Notes under the pieces: model-generated
The model's database searches: none
What the model was told of the DNA's origin: nothing
Seen by the model: the letters and a program-made list of their open reading frames with translations, nothing else
Assembly: GCA_944359885.1 (NCBI GenBank)
Contig: CALVTC010000005.1
Coordinates: 1-39,719, forward strand
Direction of reading: 5' to 3'
DNA: 39,719 bases
Source: an uncultured Bacilli bacterium
Lineage (GTDB): Bacteria > Bacillota_I > Bacilli_A > RF39 > UBA660
Program-made: the position numbers and the translations under genes
Shown here: positions 319 to 39,719 of the stretch, in pieces
How the letters are laid out: each line of letters begins with the position of its first letter
How positions within the stretch are numbered: position 1 is the stretch's first letter

Positions 319-409
319 GGAGTAGTACTCAAGAGGCTGAAGAGGCGCCCCTGCTAAGGGTGTAGGTCGGGCAACTGGCGCGAGAGTTCAAATCTCTCCT
401 ACTCCGCCA
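319..409 (+). tRNA. tRNA-Ser (GCT)
   Basis: Acceptor GGAGTAG pairs with CTACTCC. The anticodon loop CTGCTAA gives GCT. The long variable arm (GTGTAGGTCGGGCAACTGGCG region) is typical of serine tRNAs and explains the 91-base length. CCA is encoded at 407-409. Confidence 0.94.
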
Positions 410-419
410 TGATGATTTT

Positions 420-441
420 AAGAGCTTAATGCTCTTTTTTT
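420..441 (+). terminator. Intrinsic terminator of tRNA-Ser
   Basis: Stem AAGAGC/GCTCTT with a five-base loop is followed by a T run. Confidence 0.85.
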
Positions 442-477
442 CTTACTTTTTTGTTTCGAAGATTGCCGTAAATTCGG

Positions 478-506
478 TTTACTTAATTCTTTTGTTTTGC
501 TATAAT
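478..506 (+). promoter_or_regulatory. Sigma-A promoter of the glucan synthase gene
   Basis: TTTACT (478-483), a 17-base spacer and a perfect TATAAT (501-506). The 18 bases 478-495 recur exactly at 34777-34794 before another gene (see findings). Confidence 0.75.
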
Positions 507-528
507 TGGAATTAGGAGTGGTAAGATT

Positions 529-3500
529 ATGGCAAACTTAGTAAAAAATTTTTTAACAGATTTTGAAGATATTAATGAGTATTATAGTTTTTTAGTAGAT
601 AAGACAAAAAATCGTGAATATGTAGGTATTACAAATGAATGGTTAATTGATAATTTTTATTTATTAGTAGAGCATAAAACTAATATTATGCATGATAAAA
701 AAGATATAACTAAAAGTTTAAAGAAGTATGAACGTATTTTTTATTGTTTGAAAGAAATTGTTGTACGTAATAACTATAATATTAATTTTAAATTATTAGT
801 ATCAGAGTTACGAGAGTATCAAAAGCGAACTAAGGTAAACTTTTCTTACCCTGAGCTTGTTTGTGTAAAAAATATTCTATTATTCATCTATACGAAGAGA
901 CTTGCGGAATTGTGTCATGAAGAATATGCTAATTTATTAAATAAAGAAAAAGTAGCTAGAATTATTGAAAATAGAGAAGAAAAAGATATTGAACTATCTA
1001 ATTTTTTAAGTGATAGTGTTTCTGTTTCGGAAGAAGCAAATTATATTTTTGAGATTAATAATCAATTAAAGGAATTAGGGTCTAAAAGCAGACGTTTGTT
1101 TAAAGAGTTAAATGAATTATTAGAAGAAAAAAGAATTAGTTTAAAAGAAATTATTAATAATGAATATCAGAAAAGTATTGATAATGATATTTTGATTTCT
1201 AACATTTTTGGTGATTTGAAAGAGTTTTTTGAATTTACAGAAGAAGATTTATTTAAGAAAGTTAGTAAGACTGAGAAACTGTTGTTGGAAGATGAGATTT
1301 ATGCCAAGATGACAGTGGAGTCTAAAAGATTATATCGAAATCAGTTATTAAAGCTTGCTAAAAAAAATCATAAAGATGAAGTTACGTATTTAGAGGAGTT
1401 GCTTGATAAAGTAGATGGGAATGAGTATCATATTGGTTTTTGGTTGTTTCCTAAAAAGAAGAATACGGTTAAAGTTATTTTATATATTTTAACGATTGTT
1501 GTTGTTACGCTTGTTATTAGTTTTTTCTTATCACGTTATTTTATTACTTGGAGATGGCTTGGTTTTCTTTTGTTACTTATTCCTGTTAGTCAGTTGTTTG
1601 TACAGATTTTTAATCAGTTATTGATTCGCTTTGTTCCAACGTATCCGTTGCCAAAACTTGATTATTCTAAAGGTATTCCAGATGATGCTAAAACTATGGT
1701 TGTTATTCCTACGATTATTGGTAATACGGAAAAGATTAAGAATATGTTTGATACATTAGAGACATTTTATATTATGAATCAAACAGATAATTTGTATTTT
1801 ACTTTACTTGGTGATGTTACTGCTAGTAATCAGGAAGTATTAGATATTGATCAAGAACTTGCAGAGTATGGTAAAAATTATGCCGAGGAATTAAATAAAA
1901 AGTATAAAAAAGATTTGTTTTTCTTTTTATATCGTAAACGTTTTTGGAATGAGCATGAACGTAGTTATTTAGGTCATGAGAGAAAACGTGGGGCATTGTT
2001 GCAGTTTAGTCAATTATTGCTTGGGAAGATGAGCAAAGAAGAACAAGATTATTGGTATTTTGCCAATACATTAGGTGATTTTGATGGTGATATTCGTTAC
2101 GTTATTACCCTTGATCAAGATAATCGTTTGGTTTTAAATACGGCATTAAATTTAGTTGGTGCTATGGCTCATCCTATGAATCGTCCAGTTTTAAATAAAG
2201 AGGGAACTAGGGTTGTTCGTGGTTATGGAATTATGCAACCTCGAGTTAGTTTGGATATTGAAGCTACCAATAGGAGTTTATATAGTCAAATTTTTGCTGG
2301 TATTGGTGGTTTTGATACTTATAGTGCAATAGTTCCTAATTTATATCAAGATGCTTTTGGTGAAGGTAGTTTTATTGGAAAAGGTATTTATGATCTAGAA
2401 GTTTTTGATCAAGTATTAGCGGATGTTTTTCCAGATAATTTAGTTTTAAGTCATGATTTATTAGAAGGAAATTATTTACGATGTGGATATGTTTCTGATA
2501 TTGAATTAATTGATGACTTTCCTTCTAAGTTTTTAACAGATACCTCTAGACATCATCGCTGGGCGAGGGGAGATTTACAGATTGTTAGTTGGCTTTTGCC
2601 TTTTGTTAAGAATAAACAAGGAAAAAAAGTAAAAAATCCTATTAATTTATTAGGTAAGTGGAAAATATTTGATAATATTGTCCGTATGTTTTTATATCCG
2701 ACTTTATTACTTGTATTATTATGTGCTTGCTTTTTAGGAAAAGTTAATCCATTATGGTGGATAGGTCTTGTTCTTTTAGAGATTGCAATACCAATTTTAT
2801 TCTTTTTACAAAGTAAGGTATATCAAAGAGAGTCTAAAAAAGAAAAAGCAACGGTTTATTATAAGCATTTGTTATTTGGAGGAAAGAGCTTATTTTTACG
2901 TTCTTATCTAGTTCTTGCAACATTACCATTTTATTCTAAATTATATTTAGATGCTTTTTTCCGTACTTGTTATCGATTATTAATTAGTCATGATAATTTA
3001 CTTAACTGGGTAACAGCAGAAGATGCTGCAAAGAAGACAGATAAGACATTCCTAGGCTATTTAAGTCACTTTACTTTTCACTTGGTATTTAGTTTTGGCT
3101 TATTAATTATTGGTCTTGTTTTCTTTAATGTTTATGCTTGTATTCTTTCTATTATCTTTATTACAGCACCATTTGTTTTATATTATGTAAGTCTAGATAT
3201 TGATCCTCAAAAAATAGAATTAAAAGATGATGAAGTAGAAGATATTAGGGAGATTGCTTATCAGACATGGTGTTATTTTAAAGATAACTTGAAGAGTGAA
3301 TATCATTATTTAATACCGGATAACTATCAAGAAAATCGTGAAGTAAAATTAGATTTAAGAGCTTCTCCTACAGGAATTGGTTTTTCTCTTCTTAGCATTG
3401 TTTGTGCAGTAGAGTTAGATTTTATTTCTTATGATGAGGCGAAAGAGTTAATTAGTCATATTTTAGATACAGTTGATTCTTTAGAAAAATGGCATGGTCA

Positions 3501-6500
3501 TTTATATAATTGGTATGATATAAAAAGTTTAAAAGTAATGAGGCCAAGTTTTGTATCCACAATTGATTCTGGAAATTTGGTTGCTAGTTTAATTGTTGTT
3601 CGTGAGTTTTTAGAAGATCACGAGGATGTTAGTGTTTTAAAACTTTGTGATAAACTTATTCGTAATACTAATTTTAAAAAGTTATATACTAAACGAGATG
3701 TTTTTAGTATTGGATATGATGAATTAGAAGGAAGACTTTCTATTTATAATTATAATAAGTTTGCTAGTGAATCTAGATTAACTAGTTATTTGGCTATTTG
3801 TCTTGGGGATGCTCCTAGTAAACATTGGTTTTGTCTAGATAAATCGCTTACTACTTATAAAGGAAGAAAAGGACTAATTTCTTGGTCTGGTACTTCATTT
3901 GAATATTTTATGCCGTTCTTATTTATGAAGAATTATCCTAATACTTTGCTAGATGAAAGTTATCATTTTGCGAAATTTTGTCAGGAAGATTATATTGATA
4001 GTGTTTCCCGATCTTTACCTTGGGGAATTAGTGAGTCTGCTTATAATGAATTAGATAATTCTCTTAATTATAAGTATCGAGCTTTTTCTACACCATATTT
4101 AAAAGCAAAAGAGGATAAAGAAAATCGTATTGTTATTGCGCCTTATGCTTCTTTAATGGCTATGTCTTTGTTCCCTAGAGATGTTTATGATAATTTTTCA
4201 AAATTTAAAAAATTAGATATGGTTGGAAAGTATGGTTTTTATGAATCTTATGATTATGATAACAAAGGTGTTGTTAAGGCATTCTTTGCTCATCATCAAG
4301 GAATGAGTTTAGTTGGTCTTACTAATTATCTAAAAGCAGGAGCTATTCAAAATTATTTCCATCAAAATGTTAATATTAAGACGTTTGATATTTTGTTAAA
4401 AGAAAAAGTACAAGTTCGTACTAGTATTGATATGAAGATGGCTAGATATAAGAAGTATGATTATCATAAAGAAACTATTGAAAATGATATTCGTACTTTC
4501 AATTATATTTCTTATTTACCAGAGGTTAGTGTTTTATCGAATAGGAAATATTGTTTACTTATGAATGATAGAGGAGATAGTTTTTCTAGATATCGTACGT
4601 TGCAATTAAATCGTTATCGTAAAGTAACAGAACAAGATTATGGAATTTTCTTATATATTAAAGATTTAGATACGAATTATATTTGGTCTAATACTTATGC
4701 ACCAATTAATAAGAAACCAGATAAGTATGAAGTTGTTTTTGCAGCAGATAAGATTAAGTATTTGCGTACAGATGGTAGAATTACTACAAAGACAGAAATT
4801 GTAGTTACGAAAAATCATCATGCAGAAATTCGTAAAATTACGTTTAAAAATGAAAGTGATGATGTTAAGAGATTAGAATTAACTACATATACAGAACCAA
4901 TTCTTTCTGAGAATATGGATGATGTTTCTCATAGAGCATTTAATAGTATGTTTTTGACGAGTATGTATGATTCGGATAGTAATTCGTTAATTGTTCGTAG
5001 AAAGAGTAGAAATGATTCTAATATTAATAGTTATATGCTACATCGTTTACTTGTTTTAAATCCAATGGATGAGTATAGTTTTGAAACAGAGAGAAAAAAT
5101 TTCTTAGGACGAAATCGTAGTATGCAAGATCCTAAGGGAATGCATGAGAAACTAAGTAATGTTGCTGGTACTCAGTTAGATCCTGTTTTAAGTATTCGTA
5201 ATACTATAGAAGTATTACCTAATAGTTCTACTTCTGTTTATATTATTACTGGTTTTGGACGTAGTATGGAACAAATTCATGATATTATTTCTTCTTATCA
5301 TGATGATATATCTATTAATGCAGCATTTAAGGTATCTACATTAATGAATGTAATTAATACTAAGAATATGAATATTACTGGTCGTGATATGAGAATCTTT
5401 AATATTATGCTTAATTACTTATATCAAACTACGAAGCTTTCTGTTACAGAAGAGAGAATGGATTTATTGAGGAAGAATGCTTTAGGACAATCTGCTCTTT
5501 GGAAGTTTGGAGTTAGTGGAGATCGACCTATTATCGTGGTAGAGATTTCTGATATTGCTGATTTAACATTTGTTTATGATGTGTTGAAAGCTTTTGAATA
5601 TTATAAAAATAATTCTATTTTTGTAGATATTGTTATTATTAATAGTGAATCTAGTCAATATGCTAAAATTATAAAGAAGGAAATTGATGATGAACTTTAT
5701 CGTATGTATACGTTAAATAGTTTTTATCATATACCTGGTTCTGTTACTGTAGTCGATGGATTAGAGTTGTCTAGAGAAGAGAAGAGTTTACTTTATATGG
5801 TTGCAAGATTGAATTTTGTAATTTATGATCATCATTCTTTACAAGAAGCTGTTGAAGAGTTACAGAAGAAGAATAAAGTTAGTGATTATCATACTGCAGA
5901 AATAGAGACTCATGGAGAATTTCGTTCTAGAGAAAAACTTACTTTTGATAATGGTTATGGTGGTTTTAAGAATCATGGTAGAGAGTATGTAATTTATAAT
6001 CCTGATACACCAGCGCCATGGAGTAATATTATTGCGAATAAAAAGTTTGGTACTATTATTACCAATAATGGTTGTGGATATACGTATGCTTATAATTCTG
6101 GTGAGTTTAAAATTACTTCTTGGACAAATGATATGGTTGCAAATGATAAATCTGAGGGATTTAAGTTTAATGGACGTATTTTTGATCCAATGAAATGTAC
6201 TCATGGTTTTGGTTATAGTATTTTAGAAAGTGAAAATGACGAAGTCAAAAAAGAAATTACTGAATTTGTTGCGAAGGAAGATACTGTTAAATTTTATTTA
6301 GTAAAACTTACTAATAAATTAGATAAACCGGTAGATATTGATGTTGATTTTTGGATTAATCCAGTCTTTGGTAATTTTGAAGAGAAGACGGCAAGACATA
6401 TTTTAACGGAGTTTTTAGGTGATGATAATTATTTGAAACTTCGAAATGTTTATAGTGTTAATTATTCAGATGTTTGTGTATTTATGTCTTGTAGTTTACC

Positions 6501-10877: not shown

Positions 10878-10927
10878 TTTCACATAATTTTCACAAAGTA
10901 TCGTTAAACTTTTTGTGGGAGGATATT

Positions 10928-12667
10928 ATGAAGAAAAAAGAAAAAAAGTCAATGCAAGAAAAAGATTGGGGTATGGTTAAAAGAGTCGGACTTATTATTT
11001 TATTTTTAGTGGTTATTTGCGGTATTTCTTATGGAGCAGTGGTATTTGTTCGAGGACTTAATCAGAAAATATTAGAAAGTCAGTTAAATGATGAAGATTG
11101 GCTTTCTAGTCATATTGAAATTTCTAAAGATTCTAATTTAGGTAAAAATATTTATTCTGTTACAAAACCTAATGAAGTAGAAATTTTCGATATGGTTTAT
11201 CAAGATGTGATTCAAGATAAATTGGATCAACTTTTGGAAAATGAATATAGTTTTGATAATGCTCTTATGATTTATAACCCTTATGGAACTAATACACTTG
11301 GTCTTAATATTTATTTTTCTACAGATGATGCAAGAGAAGTTTCTTATACTATTCATGTAGATGATAAAGATATTGCTGATTTTTTTAGGACTTTATCTAA
11401 TGGAGAGAAGAATAATGTTACAAAGAATCATCAATATCAGTTAATTGGATTTATTGCAGGAGAAGTAAATGAAGTTACTTTGGAATTAAAAGATGAAAAT
11501 GGCAAAAAGGTGGATGAGGTATCTTTTAGTCTAGATTTAAGTGATGTTTCTGTTAATGGTGAGAAAAAGTTAGAGGTAGAAGAGGGAGATAGTAAAGAAG
11601 AACTTGCTAATGGACTTTATGCTATGCTTGGAAATGATTCTGATAGTCAAGATTATTTAGCTTTGTATGATAATGATGGTATTTTACGTATGGAAACAGA
11701 GATTATTGGATATCGTGCTCATCGTATCTTATTCCAAGATGGTAAAATGTATTATTCTGTTTCTCAAACTAGAATTGCCGAGGTAACACCACTGGGACAA
11801 GTAACAGAAATTTATCGTACTGGACATTATTATTTACATCATGATTATGTGTTTGATGATGATGGTAATTTGATTGTATTAGCGAATAATACAGAAAAAG
11901 ATACTGAAGAAGATTGTATTATTAAAATTGATTTGGATACTAAGGCAGTTACTGAAGTGATTGATTTTGAAAATATGTTTGCATCTTATGTAGAAACTTG
12001 TCAATTAGATGATTCTAACTTTAGAGATGAAGGAGAAGATGGACTAGATTGGTTACATTTGAATTCTATTGTCTGGTTAGAAGGTGGAGATGTTATTTTA
12101 AGTAGTCGTGAGACTAGCACAATAATTCGTGTTAATAATGTAGAAGATGATCCACAACTTGTTTATTTGCTTTCTGATGATACTATTTGGGAAGATACAG
12201 AATTTAGTGATTATGTGTATGAAAAAGATGGAGATTTTAAAATTCATGCTGGACAGCATAGTTTAAACTATAAAGAAAGTGATGAAGATGGTGTTTATTA
12301 TCTTACTTTCTTTGATAATAATTATGGTAAGTCTAATTCTCAACCAGACCTTGATTTTTCAAAGATGGGTATTGAAAATCAAAAACCATTTGAAGGAAGC
12401 GAATCTTATTATTATGTTTATAGAGTAGATGAAAATGAGAAAACTTTTGAATTGGTTGATAGTTTTAGTGTTCCATATTCTGGAATTGTTAGTAGTGTAC
12501 AACCGTTAAGTAATGGTAATACTATTGTAGATTCTGGTACTGCTGGTATTTTTGGAGAGTATGATGAAGATCATAATCTGATTAGACAGTTTACAGCGAA
12601 ATTAAATAAATATATGGTATACCGAGTATTTAAATATACATTTAATGATTTTTGGTTTGAAGGCTAG
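10928..12667 (+). CDS. Membrane-anchored arylsulfotransferase (ASST)-like protein
   Basis: This 579-residue protein has a short basic N-terminus, one membrane segment (about 20-43) and an extracellular beta-propeller region of the ASST family, which moves sulfate between phenolic compounds without PAPS. The residues that act in E. coli ASST (His252, His356, Asn358, Arg374, and His436 as sulfate carrier) have plausible counterparts: His304/305, His377 and Asn379 in LHLN, Arg394 in SSRETS, and His444 in GQHSL, with similar spacing. An N-terminal domain (45-200) resembles the ASST beta-sandwich. GGGAGG at 10917-10922 selects the ATG at 10928 over the upstream TTG at 10913. There is no neighbouring disulfide-forming partner (DsbL/DsbI type). 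Function is by family, substrate unknown. Confidence 0.82.
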   Translation: MKKKEKKSMQEKDWGMVKRVGLIILFLVVICGISYGAVVFVRGLNQKILESQLNDEDWLSSHIEISKDSNLGKNIYSVTKPNEVEIFDMVYQDVIQDKLDQLLENEYSFDNALMIYNPYGTNTLGLNIYFSTDDAREVSYTIHVDDKDIADFFRTLSNGEKNNVTKNHQYQLIGFIAGEVNEVTLELKDENGKKVDEVSFSLDLSDVSVNGEKKLEVEEGDSKEELANGLYAMLGNDSDSQDYLALYDNDGILRMETEIIGYRAHRILFQDGKMYYSVSQTRIAEVTPLGQVTEIYRTGHYYLHHDYVFDDDGNLIVLANNTEKDTEEDCIIKIDLDTKAVTEVIDFENMFASYVETCQLDDSNFRDEGEDGLDWLHLNSIVWLEGGDVILSSRETSTIIRVNNVEDDPQLVYLLSDDTIWEDTEFSDYVYEKDGDFKIHAGQHSLNYKESDEDGVYYLTFFDNNYGKSNSQPDLDFSKMGIENQKPFEGSESYYYVYRVDENEKTFELVDSFSVPYSGIVSSVQPLSNGNTIVDSGTAGIFGEYDEDHNLIRQFTAKLNKYMVYRVFKYTFNDFWFEG

Positions 12668-12727
12668 TTTTATCTGGCATTTTTTTAGAGTTTGGAAAAA
12701 ATTTACAAAGCTTTCGATTAAAAATAG

Positions 12728-12756
12728 TTGTCAAAAAATTAAAAATATAGTATAGT
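12728..12756 (+). promoter_or_regulatory. Sigma-A promoter of the pilus operon
   Basis: TTGTCA (12728-12733), an exact 17-base spacer and TATAGT (12751-12756). Transcription should start near 12763, giving an untranslated leader of about 138 bases. Confidence 0.85.
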
Positions 12757-12765
12757 GAATATAGT

Positions 12766-12876
12766 AGAAGATAAACAGAGTAGGTATCCTATGGATATGC
12801 GAATAGTTGAGTGAATGATTGTATAGTTAAATTGTTCTGTAATTGTTTTTTTATGAACAATTTGTGTTTATTCTCT
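12766..12876 (+). ncRNA. Structured 5' leader RNA of the pilus operon (candidate cis-regulatory element)
   Basis: Three helices can be drawn. A closing stem pairs 12766-12776 (AGAAGATAAAC) with 12866-12876 (GTTTATTCTCT), ten of eleven positions, and begins about three bases after the predicted transcription start. Inside it are a tight hairpin GTATCC-TAT-GGATAT (12784-12798) and a nine-pair hairpin AAATTGTTC/GAACAATTT (12829-12837 with 12855-12863) with a 17-base loop containing seven T. The ribosome binding site GGAGG at 12886-12890 lies just beyond the closing stem. No known riboswitch consensus was recognised. Structure was found by eye only. Confidence 0.5.
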
Positions 12877-12900
12877 AAATAGGCTGGAGGAAGAACTAGG

Positions 12901-14991
12901 ATGAAAGATAAGAGAAAAATTATTATTGGTTCTATTATTTTAGTTGCGATACTCACGGTTGTTGCAGTGGTTGCTTCTCTTTCTTTTGCTGCTCCTTTGG
13001 AAAATGATGTTAGGGTAGCGGAAAATAGTGAGTTAATTTATTACCTAGATATCACTTATGATGGTAAAGATGGTGAGGCAATAACTTCTAGTGATAGTGC
13101 TACAGCTCAGGTGTATAGTGATTATATTTATGTTGAAGATAGATTACCAGAAGGTTTAATTTTTAATGGCTTTGTTGAGACGGAAAATGGTACAATCGGT
13201 GCGGTTAAACGGAGTGATAATAGTAGTTATTGTCCAGGTTATGTCGATGGTGGTGTGGATGGACTAAGTTATGATTCTAATACTGGACTGGTTAGTTTTA
13301 GAATTAAAAATTTACAGGCAGGTTGTAAGCTTACGGTTGGTATTAAAACTATGACACCTTCTTTAGGTGATAAGACAAGAATGGATTTTTATAATACAGC
13401 TTATGGTCGAGAGGGTGGACTTACAACAAACTCTAATACAGTTCATGTATTCATGGGTAGAGAATCTGTTACTTTATATAATGTTACTTATCGTTATGAG
13501 GGAACAGTTCCTGAGGGAGCACCTGAACTTCCAGCAGCGATGACTTATATTGCTGGTTCTGAAGTTGGTGTTGCAGCTCCAGTTACAGTCCAAGGATATA
13601 CGTTTAGTGGTTGGAGTACTACTAGTTCTGGAGTGACAATTAGCAATGGATCATTTACAATGCCGTCAAATGACGTTGAACTGGTCGGTTCGTTTACGGC
13701 AGATACTTCTCCAACGTATGAGGTTAGTTATACTATTAGTGGAGATGGTCCGAATGGATATGTGCCACCTAGAACAGATAGTTATCCAGAAGGTGCAGAT
13801 GTTAAACTCGATTCCTTAAAAGTGGGAGATATTGTTAATGGATGGCGATTCTTAGGTTGGACAACAAGTGATGTTACTTTACCGGAAATTCAAGAAGGAG
13901 AAGATACAATCTTTACAATGCCTGATAATGCGGTTCAGATTGTTGGTCGCTTTGAACGAGTTAGTTATACGGTAAGTTATCAGTTCCAAGGTTCTATTCT
14001 TCCACCAAATTCAGAAAGTTTATTACCTGCTAGTGAGACACATTATCCTGGAGAAACAGTTACTACTGCTGCTTATCCAGCGGAACCTGATGGATATGAA
14101 TTCTTGGGTTGGTATCAACAAGATGAATTTGTGATGCCAGAAGCAGATGTTGTTATTTATGGTGAATGGTCATTAAGAACTGGAACATTTTCACCAACGA
14201 TAACGAAAACTATTCCTAATAAACAGGATAGTTATCAGAATGGTGATGTTGTTAACTTTAATATTCAAGTTACTAATACAGCTGATTTTGCTATTAGTAA
14301 TGTTATGGTAGAAGAGCAAACGGAAGGATGTACTTTCGTTGCTGGAGACGGTTATACTTTATTAAATAGTCAATATATTAGTATTCCAACAATTGGTGCT
14401 CATCAAAGCATTACAATTACTGCTCAATATATAGCAGGTAGTGATGTTGTTAAAAATGTTACGAATGTTGTTGAGTTAGTTGGTGCTATTGCAGAGAATA
14501 ATTATTCTTTAGATACGAGTCAAGAGTATAAAGCAGAAGTTGATTTTGTTGTTGCTAATATTTCATTAGATATTACAAAGATTAATGAAGATGGCGAGAC
14601 GTTATCTGGTGCTGAATTTACTTTGTATCGTGATAGGAATACACAGCAGAGAATTGCAACAGGACTTTCATTTGATGGTTTGGCTCCAAATACTACCTAT
14701 TATCTAGAGGAGAGTAAAGCTCCTACTGGATACCAATTATTAGGTACAGTATTGGAAATAAATGTAGATGGTAATGGGGCAATTACTATCTCAGGATATG
14801 ATGTTACTTCGCAAAACGGAGTAAACAGCGTATCTATTGTTAATCAGAAGATTAACATATTACCAAATACCGGTGGTGTAGGGGTGATTCCTTATATTGT
14901 CGTAGGATTACTTTTAGTAATTGGTGGTGTAGTATGTTGTATCAAAATGATTAGGAAGAGAGGTGATAGAAACGAGAAAGGTCATCACTAA
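12901..14991 (+). CDS. LPXTG-anchored pilus-associated surface protein with InlB-type repeats
   Basis: This 696-residue protein has a signal or membrane segment (about 5-30), then an N-terminal adhesin-like region with two cysteines (SYCPGY and AGCKL) that could form a disulfide. Three InlB-B/Flg_new-type beta-grasp repeats (about 195-425) share GYTFSGW, GWRFLGW and GYEFLGW cores. A DUF11-like domain (about 430-545) and a Cna-B/SpaA domain (about 555-650) with the E-box YYLEESKAPTGY follow, which suggests an internal isopeptide bond. The sorting signal is LPNTG at 654-658, then a hydrophobic span and a basic tail. Being first in the operon, it is most likely the tip or ancillary pilin, by analogy with other sortase pili. 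GGAGG at 12886-12890 supports the ATG. Confidence 0.87.
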   Translation: MKDKRKIIIGSIILVAILTVVAVVASLSFAAPLENDVRVAENSELIYYLDITYDGKDGEAITSSDSATAQVYSDYIYVEDRLPEGLIFNGFVETENGTIGAVKRSDNSSYCPGYVDGGVDGLSYDSNTGLVSFRIKNLQAGCKLTVGIKTMTPSLGDKTRMDFYNTAYGREGGLTTNSNTVHVFMGRESVTLYNVTYRYEGTVPEGAPELPAAMTYIAGSEVGVAAPVTVQGYTFSGWSTTSSGVTISNGSFTMPSNDVELVGSFTADTSPTYEVSYTISGDGPNGYVPPRTDSYPEGADVKLDSLKVGDIVNGWRFLGWTTSDVTLPEIQEGEDTIFTMPDNAVQIVGRFERVSYTVSYQFQGSILPPNSESLLPASETHYPGETVTTAAYPAEPDGYEFLGWYQQDEFVMPEADVVIYGEWSLRTGTFSPTITKTIPNKQDSYQNGDVVNFNIQVTNTADFAISNVMVEEQTEGCTFVAGDGYTLLNSQYISIPTIGAHQSITITAQYIAGSDVVKNVTNVVELVGAIAENNYSLDTSQEYKAEVDFVVANISLDITKINEDGETLSGAEFTLYRDRNTQQRIATGLSFDGLAPNTTYYLEESKAPTGYQLLGTVLEINVDGNGAITISGYDVTSQNGVNSVSIVNQKINILPNTGGVGVIPYIVVGLLLVIGGVVCCIKMIRKRGDRNEKGHH

Positions 14992-15658
14992 TCTAGTTCT
15001 CTTCCTTTCAATCCTGAGTTTTGGAGTATTGAATGTAGAAGCAGAAAATATTGATGTATCAAGAGTTTCTAGTCTGAATGTTACTTATCAGTATGAAGAT
15101 GTGATGCTTTCTGATGTTGATGTATCGCTTTATCAATTAGCGATGTTTAATCCATCAGGACAATATCAATTTACTGATGAATATTTGGATGTTGCTTTTG
15201 ATCCAACTGGAATGAGTGTTTCTGATCTTAACTTGAAGGGTAAGGAAATAGAGACATTCATTACAGAAAACAATCGACAACCTAGTAGTTTACAGAAAAC
15301 AAATCAAAGTGGTGTTACTAACTTTTCTAGTTTAGTTCCTGGCTTATATTTGGTATTAGTTGATAGTACCGATGTTGGAAGTTATCGATATAGTGCTTCT
15401 CCTATGTTGATTAGCATTCCAACATTAGAAAATGGTAGCTATCAATATGATATTCAAATGAATGTCAAAACAGAACGAGAAGAGTTAGGACAAGAAGTTA
15501 CTCCACCTGTTGATGATGGAATTGAAGAAGTTCCTAATACTATTGACAATATAGTGATTTATATGGTTTTACTTGTAGTTTCCATTACAGTCATTTTAGG
15601 AGTAATGATTTATATTTCAAGAAAGAAGAAAGGTGACAAAAATGAAGAAAAAAAATAA
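14963..15658 (+). CDS. Minor (probably basal) pilin with atypical sorting motif
   Basis: This 231-residue protein has a signal peptide (cleavage probably after NVEA, about residue 27), a single SpaA/GramPos-pilin-like domain (about 30-170; core features SLYQLA and LVPGLYLVL), a membrane segment and the tail SRKKKGDKNEEKK. The position of the sorting signal holds VPNTI at 190-194, lacking both the leading Leu and the Gly of LPXTG. It starts with GTG inside the last 29 bases of the previous gene, with AGGAAGAG at 14953-14960, and its end overlaps the next gene. Small size and middle position fit a base pilin. That role is inference. Confidence 0.75.
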   Translation: MIETRKVITNLVLFLSILSFGVLNVEAENIDVSRVSSLNVTYQYEDVMLSDVDVSLYQLAMFNPSGQYQFTDEYLDVAFDPTGMSVSDLNLKGKEIETFITENNRQPSSLQKTNQSGVTNFSSLVPGLYLVLVDSTDVGSYRYSASPMLISIPTLENGSYQYDIQMNVKTEREELGQEVTPPVDDGIEEVPNTIDNIVIYMVLLVVSITVILGVMIYISRKKKGDKNEEKK

Positions 15659-17159
15659 GGTATTTTTGATGGTCATGGCTGTACTTGTTTTTGTAGGTGT
15701 TCTAAATGTTCGTGCTGCAATTACAACTGGCGATGATTTAGGTAGTGATGGTGTAAGTAAAATTATTACTGAAACATCTACCTTAACTGTTACTAGTGTT
15801 AATGCTGGTGACAAACTAAGTGCTTATAAGATTTTGGATGCATTTTATAATGCTAATACCAATGTTGTTTCTTATGAGTTTACTGATGATTTCCAAGCTT
15901 ATTTGGATGAAGAAAGTAATGATCTTACTATTGATGATTACTTTGATTTAAGTAGTGGTGATATTGTCAGTGGTAGTACTACTTCTACTTCAGAATTAGA
16001 TACACTAGCAAGTGGTTATGCTGCTTATATTAAAACAAATAGTGTAACTGGTACTGAAATGAATGTAGCTGGAACTACTGCATCTGCTACTTTAGCAGCT
16101 GGTGCTTATCTAGTTTTACCAACTGAAACATTAAGAGTTTATGCTGTTATGGTTGGAAACTTAGACTATACTGCAGATGGTAATGGTTGGTCAATTAATA
16201 GTGAGACTATTGTTGCTAAAGTTGATGATGCTGGAATTACAAAAGGTGTAGGTGCTGAAGGAGTTCCTTCTGGATCTTATGGTATTGGTGATGTTGTTCC
16301 ATATATCATTACTGGTACTGTTCCAACTTATCCAACTAATGCTACTAACAAAACATATGTAATTCACGATACTATTAGTAGTGGACTTACTTTTCAAGCT
16401 GTTACTTCAATGAAAATTTCTGATGGTGATACTCCATTAACTAATAATAACGGAACATTTACAAATGGTACTGGTCAAACAGTTGCTGTTGCTGAAATTC
16501 AAGGTCAAAATTTAACAATTACATTTACAGTTGATAATCTTACTGCTAAAACTGTAAAAGTTGAATATGGTGCTACTGTTAATGAAAGTGCTGTAGTTGG
16601 TGGAGCTGGTAACTCAAATAGTGCTACTTTAGAGTATTCTAATGATCCATACGGTGATGGTACATATAATACTGGTACTGATGGTGATGATGAAGATATA
16701 GTTCCTATTTATGTATATGGTATTGATATCTTTAAACATACTCAATCTGGAGACACTCCATTATCTGGTGCAACTTTTGAAATTTACAAAGATTCTGCTT
16801 TAGAAGAATTAGTAGATACTGTTACAACTGGTGAAGATGGTCATATTAAAACTAAAGGTTTAGGTGAAGGAACTTATTATGTAAAAGAAACAAAGGCTCC
16901 TGCTGGATATCAATTATTAACTGATACTCTTACAGTTAAAATTGGACCTAACCAAAGTGGTGTAGAAGCATTACAAGATACTGATACTGATGGTTATTAT
17001 GAATTAGATGTTCCTAATGCTGAAGTTGGTATTTTACCAGTTACTGGTGGTGTTGGTACTATTATCATAACATTAGTAGGTTTAGCAATTGTTGGTGGAG
17101 CATTCTATTTCTTCTTCGTATATCGTAAGAAAAAACAAGATCAACAACAAAATGCTTAA
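15642..17159 (+). CDS. Major pilin subunit (LPVTG-anchored, Cna-B/SpaA type)
   Basis: The 505-residue preprotein has a signal peptide (about 1-25), a GramPos_pilinD1-like domain, a fimbrial isopeptide-forming D2-type domain (about 190-345, with GDVVPYIITG and VIHDTISSGLTF), and a C-terminal SpaA domain (about 360-455) with the E-box YYVKETKAPAGY. LPVTG lies at 465-469, followed by a membrane span and a basic tail. The usual YPK pilin motif is absent, but a lysine in ETIVAKVDDAGITKG lies where the linking lysine is expected. Codons are dominated by GCT, ACT and GGT, as in highly expressed genes. AAAGG just before 15633 favours ATG 15642 over GTG 15633. The start overlaps the preceding gene by 17 bases. 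Confidence 0.88.
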   Translation: MKKKNKVFLMVMAVLVFVGVLNVRAAITTGDDLGSDGVSKIITETSTLTVTSVNAGDKLSAYKILDAFYNANTNVVSYEFTDDFQAYLDEESNDLTIDDYFDLSSGDIVSGSTTSTSELDTLASGYAAYIKTNSVTGTEMNVAGTTASATLAAGAYLVLPTETLRVYAVMVGNLDYTADGNGWSINSETIVAKVDDAGITKGVGAEGVPSGSYGIGDVVPYIITGTVPTYPTNATNKTYVIHDTISSGLTFQAVTSMKISDGDTPLTNNNGTFTNGTGQTVAVAEIQGQNLTITFTVDNLTAKTVKVEYGATVNESAVVGGAGNSNSATLEYSNDPYGDGTYNTGTDGDDEDIVPIYVYGIDIFKHTQSGDTPLSGATFEIYKDSALEELVDTVTTGEDGHIKTKGLGEGTYYVKETKAPAGYQLLTDTLTVKIGPNQSGVEALQDTDTDGYYELDVPNAEVGILPVTGGVGTIIITLVGLAIVGGAFYFFFVYRKKKQDQQQNA

Positions 17160-17166
17160 TTAAATT

Positions 17167-18309
17167 ATGAAAAAAGAGATAAAAGAAAAATTAACTATTT
17201 TTCTATTTATCCTTATGATTATACTGGGTATAGGAGTTATCTTATACCCAGTGATTAGTAATCAACTGAATAAGGTAAATTATCAGGAAGTTATTGATAA
17301 TTATCAAAATACAGTTACTAAACAGAAGAACTCTCAAAATGAGGAATTGATAGAAGAAGCAAGGGAATATAATCGTTCCCTTACTTCTCTTGATATTACT
17401 GATGTTTTTCAAGATCCTAATCGAGAATCTTCTCATGAGTATTTGTCTATTTTGAATATTGAAAAAAATGGAATGATGGGATATATATCGATACCAAAGA
17501 TAGATGTTAGAATTCCTATCTATCATGGTACGAATTCCGATGTATTACAAAAAGGGGTAGGCCATCTAGAAGGAAGTTCATTTCCAGTCGGTGGAGAAAA
17601 TACACATGCTATTTTATCTGCTCACCGGGGACTTCCATCATCACGGCTTTTTACAGATTTAGATCAATTAGAAGTGGGAGATACTTTTTATATTTATATT
17701 TTAGATCAAGTTTTTGCCTACCAGGTCGATCAAGTACAAGTAATTGAACCTTCGGAAACTGATCCGCTTAGAATAGTGGAAGGAGGAGATTATGTGACGC
17801 TTGTTACTTGTACTCCTTATGCTATTAATACTCATCGATTGCTAGTCCGTGGGGAGAGAATAGAATATAATAGAGAAGTTGAAGAAAATATTGCAGTTGA
17901 TAGATCTTTATCTACTTCTGATATTGTGTTATATGGAAGTTTGTTAATTGCGATTGTATTGATCGTTATTGCAGTTATATTTATCATTCATTATAATAAA
18001 AAGAAAGGAAAAAATAGACAATCATTATCTGATAATCATTCTACTAATATTCCTGTTCAGGAAAATGTTACTTCTATATCTCGTGGCATATATGACCAAG
18101 AGCAGTCTTATGTAGATAATGCTGTTCGTTCGGCATATCAACGAGGAGAAGTTGATTCTACTTCTTTGGAGGAATCTATGAAGAAGGATGATAATTCTTT
18201 AGATGATGTGAGAGATTTTGATGATAGTTCTTCTTTATCTTCTACTATTTCTGTAGAAGATGAAAGTAAGAATAAGGATGAAGAAGATAATAATATAGAA
18301 ATTATATAA
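17167..18309 (+). CDS. Class C (pilin-polymerising) sortase with long acidic tail
   Basis: This membrane transpeptidase would link pilin subunits through LPXTG and lysine. An N-terminal membrane span with the family feature ILYPVISN precedes the catalytic domain. Active-site residues are His153 (SAHRG), Cys215 (TLVTC) and Arg228 (LLVRGER). A DPNR sequence upstream fits the lid region. A second membrane span (about 257-277) follows. Beyond it is an unusual tail of about 100 residues, rich in Ser, Asp and Glu, presumably cytoplasmic. The gene starts seven bases after the major pilin with no clear ribosome binding site, and a strong inverted repeat lies at its codons 19-29, so it may be expressed well below the pilin. 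Confidence 0.9.
   Translation: MKKEIKEKLTIFLFILMIILGIGVILYPVISNQLNKVNYQEVIDNYQNTVTKQKNSQNEELIEEAREYNRSLTSLDITDVFQDPNRESSHEYLSILNIEKNGMMGYISIPKIDVRIPIYHGTNSDVLQKGVGHLEGSSFPVGGENTHAILSAHRGLPSSRLFTDLDQLEVGDTFYIYILDQVFAYQVDQVQVIEPSETDPLRIVEGGDYVTLVTCTPYAINTHRLLVRGERIEYNREVEENIAVDRSLSTSDIVLYGSLLIAIVLIVIAVIFIIHYNKKKGKNRQSLSDNHSTNIPVQENVTSISRGIYDQEQSYVDNAVRSAYQRGEVDSTSLEESMKKDDNSLDDVRDFDDSSSLSSTISVEDESKNKDEEDNNIEII
17223..17252 (+). repeat. Perfect 10-bp inverted repeat inside the start of the class C sortase gene
   Basis: ACTGGGTATA (17223-17232) and TATACCCAGT (17243-17252) are exact complements around a ten-base loop, about 65 bases downstream of the major pilin stop. No T run follows, so it is not an ordinary terminator. 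It could stabilise the 3' end of a processed pilin mRNA or dampen sortase expression. Confidence 0.75.
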
Positions 18310-18322
18310 TGGGAGGCTCACT

Positions 18323-19105
18323 ATGGAAAAAGGGAAATTGATAATTGCCAAAATTATTTTAATACTTTTTTCCATAGTTTTTTTGTTTTCTTTATATCAT
18401 GTTGTTGTTTGGATTTTAAATAATCGTTCAACTGGAAAGTTAATTGATGAGTTACAAGATATGGTTGTTTTGGAAGATGCTAAAGTTAGTACTACAACAG
18501 AGATTTTAGATCGTAGTAGATATCATGATGTTAGTCTGTTAAGTGTTGATTTTACAGATCTTCTAAGTCAAAATAATGAAGTTGTTGGATGGATTCAAAT
18601 CCCTGGTACTAATATTAATTATCCTTTTGTTCAACATAGTGATAATTCTTATTATTTAAATCATTCTTTTGACAGGAGTTATAACTGGGCTGGTTGGTTG
18701 TTTTTAGACTATCGATCAAGTATAGATCCATTAGATATGAATACGATTATTTATGCACATGGTAGAGTAGATGGAACTATGTTTGGTAGTTTAAAAAATG
18801 TTTTGACAAGTGAGTGGAAAAAGCAAGAACAGTATTATATTCGAGTTTCTACTTTAAGTTATAATTATTTGTTTGAAATATTTAGTGCATATTATATTCC
18901 AACTACTACAGATTATTTAAATACAAATTTTAGTAATAAGCAGGAGTATGAAGAGTTTTTAAAAAAAATTCAAAGTCGAAGTATGATTCGGTTTGATACT
19001 TCCGTTACTACTGCTAATAAAATAATTACGTTATCTACTTGTTATAATAATTATGAAAAGATGGTTGTACATGGAAAATTGATTAAACAGGAAAAAAGAT
19101 ATTAA
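18323..19105 (+). CDS. Class B-type sortase
   Basis: This 260-residue transpeptidase has one N-terminal membrane segment (about 7-31). Class B features are GWIQIPGTNINYP, FVQHSDNSYYL and the long insertions between strands. Catalytic His146 (YAHG) and Cys240 (TLSTC) are present. The third residue, Arg in most sortases (KRIVVV in S. aureus SrtB), aligns with Lys246 in EKMVVHG. A class B-type enzyme in a pilus operon has precedent as a polymerase or anchoring enzyme in streptococci. GGGAGG at 18310-18315 supports the ATG. Last gene of the operon. Confidence 0.87.
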   Translation: MEKGKLIIAKIILILFSIVFLFSLYHVVVWILNNRSTGKLIDELQDMVVLEDAKVSTTTEILDRSRYHDVSLLSVDFTDLLSQNNEVVGWIQIPGTNINYPFVQHSDNSYYLNHSFDRSYNWAGWLFLDYRSSIDPLDMNTIIYAHGRVDGTMFGSLKNVLTSEWKKQEQYYIRVSTLSYNYLFEIFSAYYIPTTTDYLNTNFSNKQEYEEFLKKIQSRSMIRFDTSVTTANKIITLSTCYNNYEKMVVHGKLIKQEKRY

Positions 19106-23218: not shown

Positions 23219-23489
23219 ATCAATCTTAAAATGTTGAAGAAAAGAAGTAACTATTTTCAACTTTTGGTAGAGAGTTCGTGGCTGGTGAAAACGAATAAAA
23301 GCGAATAGTGAATAACATTTCTGAGTGCTTAAAGAAATTAGTAGACTAGGCCGGGAGCAAACCGTTATATTTGCTAGATTTGTTAGAATCGATGAGTGAT
23401 TATATTTTTATAATAAATTGGGTGGCACCGCGGAAGACTAGTTTCGTCCCAAGATACTAAATGTATTTTGGTATGAACTAGTCTTTTAT
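23219..23489 (+). promoter_or_regulatory. T-box riboswitch, asparagine-specific, controlling asnS
   Basis: The leader has the stem I distal elements (AGAGAG...GGCTGGTGAAAAC), a specifier-loop AAC codon at 23314-23316 (GAATAACATTTCTGAG) and the conserved T-box GGGTGGCACCGCGG at 23420-23433. It ends in a long terminator pairing AAGACTAGTTT (23434-23444) with GAACTAGTCTT (23475-23485) plus T-rich bases. Uncharged tRNA-Asn should stabilise the antiterminator and let asnS be read. The specifier agrees with the downstream gene. Confidence 0.93.
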
Positions 23490-23509
23490 TATACCTGGGA
23501 GGAATGGTT

Positions 23510-39593: not shown

Positions 39594-39719
39594 ATCGAAT
39601 ATTAATTTTTATTTATAGTCTATAACTTGATAAATTTCTATCTTTTTTTTCATCATAATCTATTTCATAAAGGTAGTAACTTTATGATGACAAATTTCGC
39701 AACTTTTCTATTCTTTACT
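39594..39719 (-). other. Possible frameshifted coding scrap from the integrated element
   Basis: On the - strand, one frame (39707 to 39663) reads KSCEICHHKVTTFMK and stops. A second frame, shifted by one base, runs from 39681 to a TAA at 39613 and reads YYLYEIDYDEKKDRNLSSYRL. Joined, they look like a small zinc-ribbon-type phage protein broken by a frameshift. The window ends here, so this is weakly supported. Confidence 0.3.

Follow-up and report, generated by a model that had tools for sequence, protein, structure and literature searches.

The window analysed here, a 39,719-nucleotide stretch of the genome of an uncultured Bacilli bacterium, carries a sortase-pilus operon on its forward strand, preceded by a 135-nt leader. 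The first operon gene (12901-14991) encodes a 696-aa LPXTG/SpaA-type surface protein with List-Bact, SHIRT and SpaA domains. The remainder of the operon (14963-19105) encodes a 231-aa protein (weakly similar to the pilin model NF033902 at E 1.1e-5, below its cut-off), the backbone pilin (15633-17159) and two sortases, of class C (17167-18309) and class B (18323-19105). A terminator-like site (12663-12678) after the upstream gene, arylsulfotransferase-like by its Pfam name, supports a separate transcript for the pilus operon. The promoter was placed by motif scan at 12728-12756 (-35 TTGTCA, 12728-12733; -10 TATAGT, 12751-12756; spacer 17; 10/12 matches), the leader region as a whole holding no more promoter matches than shuffled versions of it. 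Promoters of this type are found elsewhere in the genus as well. Further along the window, a T-box leader (23225-23454, forward strand; 133.7 bits in Rfam) precedes the gene at 23504.

DNA, protein, pattern and covariance searches of 16 genomes of the genus yielded two orthologous leaders beside that of the window, in the genomes G011 and G014; comparisons of leaders thus cover three sequences, all from one genus. G011 has a complete operon, whose first protein is 85% identical to that of the window over the 190 aa compared. In G014, the first pilin gene is present only in decayed form (locus L055, contig G014:C2, about 4252-4622, reverse strand), separating the leader from the second operon gene; the second and later genes are intact. 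Both orthologs keep the -10 and its 9-nt distance to the structure that follows.

This structure had been described in a first-pass annotation as a multi-branched RNA with a closing stem at the predicted 5' end of the mRNA, and the promoter scan puts the stem 9 nt past the -10. The stem was confirmed as claimed, with 10 of 11 pairs between 12766-12776 and 12866-12876 (A12769 and C12873 are unpaired), and A12777-U12865 extends it to 11 of 12. Its 5' strand is AGAAGATAAACA (12766-12777), at the predicted transcript start, and its 3' strand is TGTTTATTCTCT (12865-12876). The minimum free energy (MFE) of 12766-12876 is -22.7 kcal/mol (z -2.19), and 6 of 200 dinucleotide shuffles were as stable or more so; the isolated G011 leader forms the same closing stem (z -1.79; 12/200 shuffles as stable). 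Hairpins are indeed predicted in the enclosed region (12778-12864), but the MFE fold contains three (12780-12792 or 12784-12798, 12796-12825 and 12828-12864) instead of the two proposed, the first having two exclusive registers, GUAGG/CCUAU or GUAUCC/GGAUAU. The part that makes the leader multi-branched is poorly conserved. The ribosome binding site does stand close behind the stem, at nine bases to GGAGG (12886-12890), not ten.

When the Shine-Dalgarno (SD) sequence is included in the folded leader, the predicted fold shifts and the closing stem is lost to a competing fold that the first-pass annotation did not contain. The 3' strand of the closing stem, UGUUUAUUCUCU, is complementary also to the SD region (12885-12896): in the closed state, 12866-12869 pair with 12893-12896 and 12871-12877 with 12885-12891, forming a local hairpin of -8.6 kcal/mol by prediction. 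The switching strand would hence leave the SD free when paired with 12766-12777 and hide it when paired with the SD region. Ensembles were calculated at 37 C over transcripts of increasing length, using model energies without ribosomes, Mg2+ or kinetics. For the window leader, the mean pair probability of the closing stem is 0.92-0.95 at 111-123 nt, passes through intermediate values of 0.60-0.73 at 127-135 nt and is down to 0.06 by 139 nt and to 0.004 by 159 nt; as the stem disappears, the probability that the SD is unpaired drops to about 0.01. Over the same kind of series, the closing stem of G011 goes from 0.84 to 0.000, and in both leaders two mutually exclusive helices with one common strand, one of them hiding the SD, are predicted. 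The G014 leader keeps its closing stem, pairs its SD more weakly and closes it only in part (0.29-0.86 unpaired). By these model energies the closing stem would be an antisequestrator and not the final fold, the end state being one that hides the SD. No U-run follows the SD hairpin in the window sequence, which makes control at translation more likely than control at transcription. The SD is predicted to be unpaired with a probability of 0.012 at 20 C, 0.012 at 37 C and 0.078 at 55 C; being closed throughout this range, it gives no indication of the temperature sensor offered earlier among the possible roles, and an RNA thermometer was rejected.

How readily such pairings arise by chance depends on what is asked. 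When the upstream part was dinucleotide-shuffled and the 3' part left unchanged, the ensemble pairing between the 3' strand and the first 15 nt was matched by 3/1000 shuffles for the window, 15/1000 for G011 and 4/1000 for G014, results that are not independent because the three leaders are related. Pairing of the 3' strand with any upstream stretch was matched more often (41, 144 and 22 of 1000, respectively). SD closure was matched by 5 of 500 shuffles for the window and by none of 500 for G011. The bare 12-nt duplex is not rare, being equalled in 266 of 2000 shuffled leaders, and in a simple duplex test of SD pairing, 1810 of 2000 shuffled leaders held something as strong, over a larger search space. 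By a cruder 8-nt measure, SD accessibility is 0.18 at the leader and lower still at 6 of 26 other gene starts in the window.

The leader is conserved chiefly in its two strands and around the SD, and much less in the sequence between the strands. Between window and G011, identity is 6/6 in the -10, 7/9 in the spacer to the stem, 11/12 in the 5' strand, 49/92 in the interior, 12/12 in the 3' strand and 26/28 from the loop to the start codon; for G014 the corresponding values are 5/6, 4/9, 11/12, 25/87, 9/12 and 16/27, and the enclosed region of G014 has only about half the length. At 53% identity, the interior matches that of G011 better than any of 100 shuffled interiors (mean 37%, sd 9%, highest value 52%), which indicates that the two interiors are homologous but hardly constrained. 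Over the 40 nt before the start codon, window and G011 agree at 37/41 positions, as compared with 20/46 to 38/40 at six other starts; this comparison is not clean, since the upstream region is mostly intergenic only for the start at 10913 (20/46) and overlaps preceding coding sequence for the other five.

In the closing stem of G014, one C-G pair is replaced by U-A, a compensatory change, the A/C mismatch becomes A-U and one A-U pair is lost, so that 11 of 12 positions still pair with changed letters; in G011, one A-U becomes G-U. Compensatory change in homologous leaders, one of the tests named in the first-pass annotation, amounts to a single compensatory pair plus one change to G-U among the three sequences and does not exceed the shuffle control: 173 of 500 column shuffles reached the single compensatory pair of the closing stem, and 160 of 500 that of the SD helix, where the three sequences likewise hold one. 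When the partner is slid by 1-3 columns, the fraction of paired cells goes from 91.7% to no more than 66.7% in the closing stem, and for the SD helix from 90.6% to no more than 71.0%.

A scan against Rfam returned no family at gathering score over the leader, c-di-GMP riboswitches included, in agreement with the earlier statement that these are absent, and a known riboswitch was rejected on this ground. The only two sub-threshold matches nearby are DUF805b (14.4 bits, gathering 35.6; at 12768-12786, forward strand, E 0.17), taken as chance, and snR62 (21.4 bits, gathering 55). Across the 16 genus genomes, the covariance model R1 recovered the three leaders, its other six rows (E 0.055-0.75) being taken as chance, and across 291 family genomes it gave no convincing copy, only three weak rows (E 0.0096-0.036) likewise attributed to chance; in neither set was a convincing copy seen before any other gene. 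The pattern search misses the G011 leader because of a one-base insertion. A contig scan for the second operon gene found four loci, in G011, G006 and G014 plus L113 (26% identity), and G006 has its own promoter and a leader of its own without the two-state pattern (z 0.17, SD open). Upstream regions of other pilin homologs were judged by eye only: those in G005 and G010 end at a contig edge, those in G004, G007, G009 and G013 have a gene close upstream, and none of those in other genera shows a similar leader by this inspection. We found no published description of this leader, although one may exist in the literature.

As the leader promoter resembles the promoters of multi-copy inverted-repeat elements, an origin of the leader from a degenerate arm was tested and rejected. 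An HMM of 23 arms, which scores 19.2 bits on the locus L025 and 16.3 bits on L024, has no match on the leaders of the window, G011, G014 or G006, and the terminal hairpin TCATARAGTAWCTACCTTTATGA with arm sequence was not found downstream of the leader -10. This 23-nt hairpin, allowing up to 3 mismatches, occurs at 34 places in the genome of the window (including 39665-39687 of the window, reverse strand), at 17 in G011, at 3 in G006 and at 2 each in G007 and G013; the reversed pattern, used as control, matched once in all 16 genomes. The copies are often arranged as divergent pairs with a spacing of about 270-420 bp, or of 1.3 kb in L102. Of 18 such paired elements looked at (L090-L107), all 18 have a promoter on exactly one arm; judged by a crude SD-ATG test, this promoter is directed towards a start codon in 4 (in L090, start codons lie on both sides) and away from one in 11, with none in 3. 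Judged from their sequence, the elements look like a large set of invertible promoters for phase variation. Between the arms of L102 (contig G011:C37), which has TTAGTCAA-type repeats near them, lies a gene for a tyrosine recombinase (392-1471, reverse strand; Phage_integrase, E 1.2e-26), a candidate enzyme for moving or flipping this family. In G009 (L128) and G013 (L129), the genes ahead of the pilin homologs are of the VWA/DUF285 tip-adhesin-like kind and are themselves preceded by an inverted-repeat-type promoter arm, which suggests that pili are phase-variable in these two genomes, unlike in the window.

The first-pass annotation had proposed a cis-regulatory RNA controlling surface pili. 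This is a fair reading, given that pilins and class C and B sortases follow, that no Rfam family reaches its gathering score and that the strands and the SD region are conserved above the interior, although the closing stem turns out to be only half of two competing structures. We tentatively favour, with confidence just short of even, a lineage-specific bistable switch that acts on translation of the first pilus gene. The strand 12865-12876 would be common to two exclusive helices: during synthesis, its partner would be 12766-12777 at the 5' end, a pairing that holds it away from the SD and places the 5' end of the mRNA within a stem; after synthesis of the SD (12886-12890), it could pair there instead and hide the SD, and this closed state is predicted to win at equilibrium. 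Pilus output may then be set by ribosome loading before the exchange, or by a factor holding one of the states, possibly a protein, an sRNA or RNA polymerase pausing. The computed ensembles show the two helices, the order in which they form and the occurrence of both in G011; in cells, the helices would presumably exchange in response to some trigger and thereby control translation. Against this reading, the G014 leader may be drifting, its first pilin gene being decayed, conservation near an SD can have other causes, and strong predicted SD pairing is not unusual in the window.

Two main rivals have to be weighed against the bistable switch. The leader may have no RNA function at all, the purine-rich start of a strong promoter and a conserved pyrimidine-rich, ribosome-binding region pairing through their composition. 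We consider this rather unlikely: it would account for the ease with which shuffled leaders equal the bare duplex, for the similar purine-rich runs that begin other promoters of the genus, for covariation at the level of the controls and for the closed SDs common in the window, but not for 5'-end pairing that beats shuffles in all three leaders, SD closure that does so in both intact ones and the 11 of 12 pairs kept in G014 despite changed letters. The other possibility, unlikely and to us slightly more so, is that the closing stem mainly shields the mRNA from 5'-end-dependent decay of the RNase J type and that SD pairing is incidental. A stem at the predicted start of three leaders, always 9 nt from the -10, speaks for this, as does an enclosed sequence free to vary, which a clamp would lead one to expect. 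However, a clamp has no need of a 3' strand adjacent to the SD or of 26/28 identity across the loop and the SD, and in both species with intact operons the full-length transcript is predicted to lose the stem.

Sensing by the enclosed region itself is much less probable. In translational riboswitches, an enclosing stem contributes its 3' strand as the switching strand, and the leader has this layout, so that the enclosed region could be an aptamer and the common strand its expression platform. We nevertheless regard a true riboswitch as very improbable, and a metabolite aptamer, as implied by the ligand sensor of the first-pass annotation, as unlikely: the three sequences share no conserved core, the interior differing as much as given above and being about half as long in G014, and neither an Rfam match at gathering nor a convincing copy elsewhere among the 16 genus and 291 family genomes was found. 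Most improbable of all is translation attenuation, in which a short leader reading frame would stall ribosomes and free the SD. A short frame does follow AGTAGG, with its ATG at 12791 and M D M R I V E before the stop, and at the corresponding place G011 encodes M I R V L, but peptide and length differ, the SD of this frame is weak in G011, and G014 has no counterpart there.

With translational riboswitches and other SD-sequestering leaders, the bistable switch would share the use of one strand by an enclosing 5' stem and an SD-hiding hairpin; it differs from them in having no conserved aptamer or Rfam match and in being found before only one operon, in three species of one genus. Among pilus systems, the type IV pili genes of C. 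difficile are preceded by the c-di-GMP-II riboswitch Cdi-2-4, which acts on transcription read-through (PMC6200980). Both are pilus operon leader RNAs in Gram-positive gut bacteria; the pili here are sortase pili, and no c-di-GMP family is matched. In S. pyogenes, the sRNA FasX acts on cpa, the first gene of the pilus operon (PMC4691137). There, as predicted here, a pyrimidine-rich strand lowers ribosome access to the first pilus gene, but FasX works in trans, whereas the strand here is part of the same mRNA. Expression of the Ebp pilus of E. faecalis depends on RNase J2, an effect its authors think likely to run via EbpR (PMC5383250). It is likewise a sortase pilus operon influenced at the RNA level, which is a prediction in our case; the accessible part of that article describes no leader structure for Ebp.

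A bolder proposal, which we think decidedly unlikely, is that the leader represents a new, lineage-specific RNA switch, in which the first 12 nucleotides of the transcript serve as an antisequestrator that times when sortase pili are translated; co-transcriptional folding or a trans factor, and not a small-molecule aptamer, would provide the read-out. If the bistable switch favoured above is real, the leader would be a simple two-state device outside the known riboswitch families. The surface pili of this uncultured Bacilli lineage would then be set post-transcriptionally by RNA exchange, in contrast to related pilus loci of at least two species within the same genus, G009 and G013, which follow a tip-adhesin-like gene with an inverted-repeat-type promoter arm.
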